Below, one piece after another: positions 2 through 41,974 of a stretch of DNA of 41,974 bases. The notes under the pieces are model-generated. The model saw only the letters and a list, made by a program, of their open reading frames with translations. It was not told the DNA's origin and ran no database searches. Source of the stretch: Planctomycetales bacterium (GTDB lineage: Bacteria; Planctomycetota; Phycisphaerae; Sedimentisphaerales; Anaerohalosphaeraceae). A program made the position numbers and the translations under genes. Within the stretch, counting starts at the first letter, position 1. Each line of letters opens with the position of its first letter. Location of the stretch: positions 1 to 41,974 of the forward strand of contig JAKEGM010000006.1 of assembly GCA_022615575.1 (NCBI GenBank), given 5' to 3'.

Positions 2-97
2 TTTGAAGACATTGTCCAGTGGAACGCAAATTGTCAAAGAGCTGGGGCGGCTGCTTATCGCCGCATAAAAACTATGAAAAAAAGTCAGTCAAGTTGA
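2..97 (+). CDS. C-terminal end of an unidentified protein, cut by the window edge
   Basis: A frame open from the left edge ends at TGA (95-97) and encodes about 31 residues beginning FEDIVQWNANCQRAGAAAYR. The composition looks like normal protein rather than a shadow frame. The stop overlaps a possible TTG start of the next gene (TTGA at 94-97), the usual geometry of translational coupling. The function cannot be told from so short a tail. The competing reading is that this stretch is the 5' part of the next gene read from a GTG at 19. Confidence 0.35.
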   Translation, partial: FEDIVQWNANCQRAGAAAYRRIKTMKKSQSS

Positions 98-369
98 GTA
101 AGATAGTTAATGTCATAACCCAACGGGTTATTGATCATTCTGGGAGCGAATTAGATAAAGATACAATTCTTTTATGGCGAGGCCGCATATACGAACATCA
201 GAAAAAATACACGGAAGCAGAAAATTATTATAATATTCTGCTGCAAGAAGACTCCTTCCTTTCACCTTCTGGCGGTCTTGGTCTGGCAAGATGCAAGAAA
301 TTTCAGGGTAAAGATTCCGAAGCCGAGAACATCAAAAAGCAATTAAAACAAAAATATCCATTGATTTAA
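94..369 (+). CDS. Small TPR-like protein
   Basis: The gene encodes about 91 residues from a TTG at 94; the frame is open back to a GTG at 19, which would add 25 residues. Neither start has a good Shine-Dalgarno site. I prefer 94 because it overlaps the preceding stop and because the 19-94 stretch reads better in the other frame. The middle (LLWRGRIYEHQKKYTEAENY, then GGLGLARCKKFQGKDSEAE) has the A/G/Y spacing of one to two tetratricopeptide repeats, so a protein-protein interaction role is likely. There is no signal peptide or membrane segment. Base composition is more A+T rich than the genes that follow, which may indicate a different origin. Confidence 0.5.
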   Translation: MSKIVNVITQRVIDHSGSELDKDTILLWRGRIYEHQKKYTEAENYYNILLQEDSFLSPSGGLGLARCKKFQGKDSEAENIKKQLKQKYPLI

Positions 370-38649: not shown

Positions 38650-40146
38650 ATGTCAAACATGTTTAATGCTGCAATGCGTTTTTTTGTCATGTCTGTCGGT
38701 TTATCTCTATCGATCTTTCCGTCCCTTGCGGGGAGTACGGCAACTGCCGCCGAAACGACGGACGCTGCGAAAAAACCCCCTCGAATCCACGCCGTCAGCC
38801 ATCTCGGCCACCAGTTCAGTTTTTACGCAGATGGTCGATTCCATCAGCAATATCTGCCCGGCCAACCCGCCGCGACAAACTGGGGAGAGATTTACAATTA
38901 TGATTTTTCAAATGCGAATATGCTGATCCTGCTGGGGTGTGAGCCCCAACTCCGCTATCTGCCCAGAGACCTTACAGCAATCAAAGCGCTCCTGCAGGAC
39001 GGCGGCGGCGTGGTGCTTTTCGGCCACGACGGGGAAAATCCCCAGAACAAACTGGTCGCGATGTTTGGCTGCAGGTTCAAGGGCGATGCGAAAAAACCGT
39101 TCAAGGCCGTTTCCGACGAAATCACCGGAACCATTGAGGGCCACGGGCAATGGATGGAGTTTGAGCAGAGCCAAACATGGGAGGTCCTGATCGCAGACGC
39201 CGACAACAAACCCATTCTGGCAAGGAGGAAAGCCGGAAAGGGGACCCTGCTGGTCAGTGCAAGGGGTCTGGCCGGCAGCCAACCCGACGCCAAAGACAAC
39301 ATCAACGCTGCCTGGTGGATTCCGCTGCTGGAAAAAGCCGTCCAGGGCAAAAGCGTCGATCCAGGCAAGCCCTTCCAGAGCCGCGGTCTTGGGCAGCTTG
39401 AGTACGCCGAAGAACTCGGCAGCATCACCCTGCGCTACAGCGAATACCTCAAACCCTACGCAAGTGCGATGGCCGACATTTATAAACGAACCAAACCCGT
39501 GATGCAGGAGCGATTGGGGGTGCCGCTGTCGGATGGCATGGCAAGCGAGATTGGTCTTTTGGCCACTGGCGGGGGGGGGTTCTCGTCAGGCAGGATGCTG
39601 GGGCTGGCCGTTTTCTGGGGCGGCTTTCCCGAACGCGAAGACGGCATGATCGAGTTCATCACGCATGAAACGGTTCATTCCTGGGTACTGCCTTTTGCCG
39701 AAATCTGGAACGAGCCGATCGCCACCTATATTGGGGACCTTGTCATGGCGGATATGGGCTATGAAGACGAGGGGATGCGGCGAATCAAGTCGCAGATCGA
39801 TAGCGCAAAGAGGATAGACCCAACAATGAAACGCTACGATCTGAGCGGAAAAAGCATGGAAAAAGATGTTGAACCGCTGACGGGCGGCCAGGCAAATACT
39901 ATGCATTGGGGCAAAACATTCTGGATTTTTGAGGAACTGCGAAAGGAAAACCCGGACTTTGTCGCGGACTACTTCATCGCCAAGCGCAAACTGGCAAAGC
40001 CCGGCGAGATAAAAAACTATGATGCCAACGCCACCGTCGCGGTTGTCAGTGCGGCCATGGACAAGGACATGTTCGGATGGTTCCGGGAGCACGGCTTTGA
40101 CGTTGACAGGGAGAAATCCGATATCCAGAATTTACAAACCCATTGA
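38650..40146 (+). CDS. Secreted HExxH metalloprotease of unrecognised family
   Basis: The 498-residue protein has a Sec signal peptide (cleavage near ATAA-ET, about residue 34). The N-terminal part (45-235) resembles a Rossmann or glutamine-amidotransferase-like fold (MLILLGCEPQLRYLP, DGGGVVLFGHDGEN). The C-terminal part has HETVH (His339, Glu340, His343) with Glu355 12 residues later in IWNEPIATYIGD, the gluzincin zinc site. MHWGKTFWIFEELRKENPDF then recalls M60/M1-like helices. It probably cleaves proteins or glycopeptides outside the cell. AGAGG stands 7 nt before the ATG. It has no related neighbours; the exact family is not known to me. Confidence 0.72.
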   Translation: MSNMFNAAMRFFVMSVGLSLSIFPSLAGSTATAAETTDAAKKPPRIHAVSHLGHQFSFYADGRFHQQYLPGQPAATNWGEIYNYDFSNANMLILLGCEPQLRYLPRDLTAIKALLQDGGGVVLFGHDGENPQNKLVAMFGCRFKGDAKKPFKAVSDEITGTIEGHGQWMEFEQSQTWEVLIADADNKPILARRKAGKGTLLVSARGLAGSQPDAKDNINAAWWIPLLEKAVQGKSVDPGKPFQSRGLGQLEYAEELGSITLRYSEYLKPYASAMADIYKRTKPVMQERLGVPLSDGMASEIGLLATGGGGFSSGRMLGLAVFWGGFPEREDGMIEFITHETVHSWVLPFAEIWNEPIATYIGDLVMADMGYEDEGMRRIKSQIDSAKRIDPTMKRYDLSGKSMEKDVEPLTGGQANTMHWGKTFWIFEELRKENPDFVADYFIAKRKLAKPGEIKNYDANATVAVVSAAMDKDMFGWFREHGFDVDREKSDIQNLQTH

Positions 40147-40264: not shown

Positions 40265-41143
40265 ATGGAATTTACGAAAATGCACGGGCTGGGCAATGAC
40301 TACGTGTATGTCAGCTGCTTCAGCCAGCATGTTGAAAATCCGGCGGAATTGGCCGTGCGGGTCAGCGACCGCCACTTCGGCATCGGCTCCGACGGACTGA
40401 TTCTGATCGGCCCTTCCGACATTGCCGATGCCAAAATGCGGATGTTCAATGCCGACGGTTCCGAGGCCCAGATGTGCGGCAACGGCATCCGCTGCGTCGC
40501 CAAGTATGTCTATGACCATCGGCTGGCGCGTACGCATACCGAGTTTTCCATTCCCGGATTGGGCACATTTGCGTCGTCGCTGCGGATTGAAACCCGCCGG
40601 GGCGTGCTGACCGTCGGGCTGGATATTGACGAACAGGACAAAGTCAGCCGGGTCTGTGTCAATATGGGACAACCGATTCTGGAGGCCGCCCGGATTCCCG
40701 TGGCGGTTGTGGCTGAAAGCATTATTGACCAGGAATTGGCGATTGAAGGCCAGACGCTTTCCATGACTTGCGTGTCGATGGGCAACCCGCATGCCGTCTT
40801 TTTCTGTGAGGACCTGCACACCATCGAACTGGCTCACATTGGCCCGCTTATTGAACATCACGAACTGTTTCCCGAACGGGTCAACGCGCATTTTGTCAAA
40901 TCCGTCAGCCCGAATGAGTTTATTATGGAAACATGGGAGCGCGGCAGCGGGATTACCCTGGCCTGCGGCACCGGCGCCTGCGCCTGCGCGGTAGCGGGCG
41001 TACTTACCGGCAGATGTCAGCGGCAGGTAACCGCTCATCTCCCCGGCGGCCAATTACAGCTTTACTGGTGCGAACGCGACAATTGCGTCTATATGACCGG
41101 CCCGGCCACCGAGGTCTTCACCGGCACTTGGCCAGAGTGTTAA
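40265..41143 (+). CDS. dapF: Diaminopimelate epimerase
   Basis: The 292-residue cytoplasmic enzyme interconverts LL- and meso-diaminopimelate for lysine and peptidoglycan. The two catalytic cysteines are Cys71 (MCGNGIRC) and Cys234 (LACGTGACA). MHGLGNDYV (6-14) and FNADGSEAQ are also diagnostic. The ATG at 40265 has GAGGG about 9 nt upstream; a TTG start at 40220 lies inside the promoter. It is convergent with the broken P-loop gene, 3 bp away. Its presence indicates that the organism makes DAP. Confidence 0.97.
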   Translation: MEFTKMHGLGNDYVYVSCFSQHVENPAELAVRVSDRHFGIGSDGLILIGPSDIADAKMRMFNADGSEAQMCGNGIRCVAKYVYDHRLARTHTEFSIPGLGTFASSLRIETRRGVLTVGLDIDEQDKVSRVCVNMGQPILEAARIPVAVVAESIIDQELAIEGQTLSMTCVSMGNPHAVFFCEDLHTIELAHIGPLIEHHELFPERVNAHFVKSVSPNEFIMETWERGSGITLACGTGACACAVAGVLTGRCQRQVTAHLPGGQLQLYWCERDNCVYMTGPATEVFTGTWPEC

Positions 41144-41146
41144 AAG

Positions 41147-41617
41147 TTATAACCATCCCCATTTTTTTCTGATTTTTGCTGCAAGAGCGTTTGCTGGTTC
41201 ACTTTTGGGGACAAAAGGTAACATCGCCAGCAATCCCGGGATTTCTTGTAAATCTGCTTCTATATTTGCTTGTTCTGTTACCCCAGCCAAAACAACAATT
41301 CCTTTAGGAATATGCCAGTCCTGATTCACAAAGTATTGGATATAGTCGCTGCCCCGATTGCCGTGATGCCCTCCCATATTGACTCGCAAAGCTAAAAGAA
41401 TATTTTTGTACTTTTTATGCCTTTTCACAAAATCATGAGCCGGAATATGCATTTCCTGCAAAGCATCACCGATCACACAGAATTTGATGTTGCCATCATC
41501 CAATGTTGCGATTTCCCATGCAACATCTTGACGAGAATTTCATTTTCCCGTTAACGCCCGTATGATTGTTGATTTCCCCGCTTTGGAATCTCCCATTACA
41601 ATGTAAACATTTGGCAT
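41147..41617 (-). pseudogene. P-loop nucleotide-binding protein interrupted by an in-frame TGA
   Basis: On the minus strand an ATG at 41617 with GGAGA just before it encodes MPNVYIVMGDSKAGKST, a clear Walker A, then IIRALTGK and a TGA (41542-41540). The same frame continues for 130 more codons (NSRQDVAWEIATLDDGNIKF and onward) to a TAA at 41147. The two halves read as one small ATPase/GTPase of about 155 residues with one nonsense codon. A mutation in a decaying gene is the simplest view; a sequencing error or recoding is possible. No tail motifs identify the family. It lies 20 bp downstream of the PEP-CTERM remnant on the same strand. Confidence 0.7.
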
Positions 41618-41637
41618 TTTTTGTCTCCTTTCGCTTT

Positions 41638-41883
41638 TTATGTTTTCTGTTTCCTACAAATTATTGCGCCCAAGCCCAAGAACAAAAGAGTGCAGGGTTC
41701 GGGAACTATCGGGGCAGTCGAAATTACCCTTGTAGGATCAGATGCTTCAATTGCAAATGAAGATCCCAGTGTCTCTTTGTTTTGATAATTGCTCAAATCA
41801 TAAACGTATTGGTTTTGCAAATCTTCATCGAAGTTAAAGTATCCAATCAGACCACTCTCGGTAGGACTCACTAATTTACTCAA
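41638..41883 (-). pseudogene. LamG-like PEP-CTERM protein, C-terminal remnant
   Basis: The frame encodes 81 residues (TTG start; an in-frame TAA lies 12 bp further upstream). The end VPEPCTLLFLGLGAIICRKQ is a PEP-CTERM sorting signal: Pro-Glu-Pro, a hydrophobic helix and a basic tail. The part before it (GLIGYFNFDEDLQNQYVYDL) looks like the closing strands of a LamG/concanavalin-like domain. No signal peptide is present, so it is a fragment, or the 5' part is in another frame beyond a frameshift near 41890. PEP-CTERM proteins are cut and anchored by exosortase in many planctomycetes. Confidence 0.6.
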
Positions 41884-41974
41884 GTTGACTGGCTTTTAGA
41901 ATGGGATTTTAAACGATGATGGTGATTTTTTCAATAAAAAACGGCACTCTCTTCGATAAAAGGGTTGTAAGACG

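Follow-up and report, generated by a model that had tools for sequence, protein, structure and literature searches.

A P-loop-like gene broken by one in-frame TGA behind its Walker A motif is probably a young nonsense pseudogene

Pseudogenes arise more often from transferred genes than from host genes, and recent ones carry few disablements, according to Liu et al. 2004 (PMC522871). Like the nonsense pseudogenes left by failed horizontal transfer in that paper, the locus described here shows foreign composition, patchy distribution and one disablement, and a single stop in an orphan gene that looks acquired, beside a truncated gene, fits the account given there (PMC522871). Unlike those pseudogenes, the disablement here has no intact homologue as a yardstick. 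A second class of genes with an in-frame TGA and a hairpin behind it is that of the bacterial selenoproteins. PMC1088965 places the bacterial SECIS immediately 3' of the UGA, its small apical loop carrying a guanosine, and demands Cys-containing homologues before a selenoprotein candidate is pursued.

The locus lies at the end of the window, by which we mean the whole stretch of 41,974 nucleotides that was analysed. Its features are as follows.

40265..41143, plus strand: dapF, an intact neighbour (TIGR00652, E 1.4e-88)
41147..41617, minus strand: interrupted P-loop-like ORF (ATG 41617-41615, 25 codons, TGA, 130 codons, TAA 41149-41147)
41502..41527, minus strand: hairpin, SECIS-like in outline, not above chance
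41540..41542, minus strand: in-frame TGA, codon 26 of the P-loop-like ORF (TCA at 41540-41542 on the plus strand)
41570..41593, minus strand: Walker A motif GDSKAGKS, residues 9-16 (from the translation and the motif pattern)
41625..41632, minus strand: Shine-Dalgarno-like GAAAGGAG, 7 bases ahead of the ATG at 41617-41615 (from the sequence)
41638..41876, minus strand: 3' end of a truncated upstream gene, with a PEP-CTERM-like tail (Pfam PF07589, E 0.013, 16 bits, cut-off 20.7)
41877..41974, plus strand: 98-base repeat, of which an identical, likewise oriented copy lies 3 bases before contig C147 (L094) ends

The original prediction of an in-frame TGA at 41540-41542 was confirmed on the minus strand, in frame with the ATG at 41617-41615. 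The ribosome site, Walker A motif and downstream frame that it called intact are all present, as GAAAGGAG, GDSKAGKS and 130 open codons. It had singled out base 41541 for checking; the TGA codon stands, but any one of its three bases could be the altered one. In translation, the 25 residues before the TGA end in ...GKSTIIRALTGK, and the 130 sense codons after it run uninterrupted up to the TAA, so that the whole product would have 156 residues. Among 20,000 first-order Markov sequences with the composition of the downstream part, 0.2% stayed open for 130 codons, and the mean number of stops was 6.1. Each of the other five frames of the region holds 5 to 8 stops. The frame 3' of the TGA is therefore most likely real coding sequence. 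The G+C content of the interrupted ORF is 51% at the first codon position and 36% at the second and third. The gene has one disablement in 156 codons, a premature in-frame stop within an otherwise coding frame, as in a nonsense pseudogene.

Like P-loop NTPases, the predicted protein has an N-terminal Walker A motif, GDSKAGKS at residues 9-16, which we assign by the pattern G-x4-G-K-S/T. Unlike them, it matches no family model at cut-off, and neither a Walker B motif nor a family was identified. The best Pfam match, MMR_HSR1 at residues 6-28, scored 17.4 bits against a cut-off of 21.9, and no P-loop family model reached its cut-off in Pfam or in NCBIfam, where the scores were far under. The best PADLOC match (E 0.007) and the best PHROGs match (E 0.032) were both weak. 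These weak family matches mostly fall in the N-terminal region around Walker A. Since no family model was reached at cut-off, we term the gene P-loop-like only. A single-sequence structure model of the read-through protein had a mean pLDDT of 41.2, too low for a fold search; the sole match to a solved structure (E 0.93) was dismissed as chance. Rfam models matched nothing in 41000-41974, even at E values up to 1.

Protein searches recovered no relatives elsewhere in the gene's own genome, in 97 other related genomes (98 with its own) or, among accepted matches, in 391 other genomes of the phylum (392 with its own; this set overlaps the 97), with the proviso that single-query protein searches can overlook distant relatives. 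Besides the gene itself, the phylum search gave three weak matches (E 0.005-0.009). We read two of them (L004 and L006) as ABC-transporter proteins with a P-loop, and the frame matched in the third (L005) contains five stops; all three were dismissed. Nor was a relative found in 9 genomes reached through loci or in 369 genomes of the class of G479, neither set holding a genome known to match. Six exact 8-residue peptides matched 14 stretches in the genome contigs, none of them a relative. A pattern search of viral contigs matched 51 stretches and yielded no relative; the one that was confirmed (L034), presumably an SbcC/Rad50-like phage protein, shares only the Walker A region and was set aside. 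The C-terminal motif, which we assume to be a family mark, was found as a pattern in the 392 genomes in the gene itself only, and its three viral matches were attributed to chance. Comparison with phages by tblastn gave no match; with plasmids it gave one (E 0.7), under a gcvP gene and taken as chance, and blastn of 41144-41974 against plasmids gave none. Thus no homologue with a sense codon at the TGA position was found in the genome, viral, plasmid and phage searches, and in the genomes searched nothing appears related to this uncharacterised protein, which may merit attention if intact copies appear.

The gene also stands apart in composition. Its GC content is 41%, compared with 52.5-62.0% in 32 ORFs of the window hand-picked as likely genes, and a composition profile marks the segment that carries it as compositionally foreign. 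All 9 other genomes of the genus have the neighbouring dapF, at 82-87% identity. In none of the nine do the 1,500 bases behind it contain such a P-loop gene, as judged from ORFs of at least 100 residues, and the protein search was likewise empty in these genomes. Low GC and absence in relatives suggest that the P-loop-like gene was acquired by transfer. The region behind dapF varies in gene content among the nine genus relatives (L024-L032) and seems to be a variable spot.

On its other side, the P-loop-like gene follows a truncated gene in the same direction, whose remnant (41638..41876) ends 20 bases before the ATG and which NCBIfam PEP-CTERM families also match weakly. The 5' part of this gene is missing from 41877, where the 98-base repeat starts. 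The first 21 bases of the repeat agree with the reverse complement of window positions 80-100 at 19 of 21 bases (90%, E 0.045), so both contig ends carry related sequences of about 21 bases that point outward. Because such related inverted sequences face outward at both contig ends, we take 41877..41974 and 80-100 to be probable insertion-sequence ends; together with the end of C147 they probably represent a single multi-copy insertion sequence where the assembly stops, an element known from these probable ends alone. A search with the repeat end gave a single 26-base hit, in a Proteus mirabilis record (E 0.07), which was not informative. We read the locus as acquired DNA of low GC that a mobile element has disturbed.

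Of the options that the original prediction left open, namely a fresh pseudogene, a sequence error or programmed read-through, the context favours the first: the P-loop-like gene is most likely a young nonsense pseudogene. The feature is real and its explanation ordinary. If the TGA were an error of base calling or assembly, or belonged to a minor strain in a mixed draft assembly, the gene would be intact in the organism; we hold this to be unlikely, though not negligibly so. The draft consists of 160 contigs, is 89.62% complete and has 2.07% contamination, the TGA is the sole disablement, and the contig breaks off in a repeat less than 0.9 kb from the gene. However, the TGA is 432 bases from the contig end and not within the repeat, decay is plausible in so disturbed a neighbourhood, and consensus sequences seldom carry single substitution errors. 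The lack of a second disablement also fits a base-call error, or a read-through gene in use. It is the foreign composition and the truncated neighbour, together with the single disablement, that make us favour a young pseudogene over an error.

As a young pseudogene, the locus may have formed as follows. A low-GC segment with a small P-loop-like gene, of 156 residues if whole, would have arrived beside dapF, and one change would then have turned codon 26 into TGA. The ribosome would start at the good start site, make a Walker A peptide of 25 residues and halt, and starts 3' of the TGA would yield products that lack Walker A; no working protein is expected. The probable insertion element in the co-directional upstream gene may also have separated the gene from its promoter and relaxed selection. 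The sequence itself shows the frame with its TGA, the low GC, the repeat and the truncated neighbour; the rest of this account, from the transfer and the mutation to the insertion element, the sequence of steps and the loss of function, is inferred. In annotation, the fitting label is probable pseudogene, not recoded gene; the finding means little beyond this.

Some pseudogenes still yield products, as the review PMC11078800 describes, and residual read-through of the P-loop-like gene is on that ground conceivable; nothing at this locus points to it. Programmed or leaky read-through of the TGA, giving some full-length protein, would agree with the intact start site and the intact coding signal downstream, but we consider it improbable. 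The 42 tRNA matches in the genome (89.62% complete), all named by ARAGORN, include no UGA-reading anticodon TCA, an absence to be read with the incompleteness of the draft. The fold downstream of the TGA is weak: over the first 43 bases, counted from the TGA, it has -8.3 kcal/mol (z -1.0), a value that 32 of 200 shuffles matched or bettered, and over three longer stretches z is -1.0 to -1.6, matched or bettered by 13 to 28 of 200 shuffles. There is very little to commend a special form of this explanation, in which a small P-loop-like family would use a TGA behind the Walker A helix as a conserved, conditional read-through switch that needs no selenocysteine machinery. In this form the ribosome would normally halt after the 25-residue Walker A peptide and read through only under some condition. 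tRNA-His and tRNA-Asp were also absent from the 42 tRNA matches, in keeping with an incomplete draft.

If TGA were reassigned, either here or in the organism that donated the segment, the codon would be a sense codon. The segment is compositionally foreign and its donor may differ in code, yet we regard this as highly improbable. The original doubt about a reassigned code is upheld by the use of TGA as stop in 8 of the 32 ORFs of the window. Four of these TGA-ended ORFs were scanned, and three have strong Pfam matches (porphobilinogen deaminase, tRNA pseudouridine synthase and ABC transporter), while the fourth, 38650-40146, had no Pfam match. Further, the gene has a single TGA, and the tRNA-Trp found has the anticodon CCA.

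We give almost no credence to the remaining possibility, that the TGA is a selenocysteine codon with a SECIS hairpin directly downstream. Like bacterial selenoprotein genes, the locus has an in-frame TGA with a hairpin behind it; unlike them, its draft genome yielded no selenocysteine machinery, its hairpin is at chance level and the searches gave no homologues, and so none with Cys at the TGA position. The predicted protein also has no apparent redox site. The tRNA-Sec model reached its cut-off nowhere in the draft (89.62% complete; best 45 bits against 47), and neither did selB (best 196.2 bits against 242.25). All ten matches to the tRNA-Sec model are ordinary tRNA-Ser, Leu, Trp, Cys, Tyr and Arg by ARAGORN, and the best selB match, a protein of 405 residues, reads as EF-Tu. 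Of 14 control genomes, 5 gave a tRNA-Sec score over the cut-off but only 2 a selB score; the selB search may therefore overlook some genuine cases.

The SECIS-like hairpin whose presence the original prediction made a point to check does exist, but it does not exceed chance. It has the loop GGGAA, 22 bases behind the TGA, and it passes a loose rule that we presume to describe a SECIS: a stem of at least 6 pairs with small bulges, a loop of 3-12 bases with a G in its first two, a distance of 16-37 bases from the codon and -5 kcal/mol or better. The same rule accepted 29 of the 156 codons of this gene, 1,242 of 6,283 codons in 14 ORFs of the window (counted over overlapping stretches) and 224 of 2,000 codon shuffles. 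As ordinary codons and shuffles pass it too, the hairpin does not speak for selenocysteine. A TGA followed by a SECIS-like hairpin thus means little unless the machinery accompanies it, the loose rule taking about one fifth of ordinary codons.
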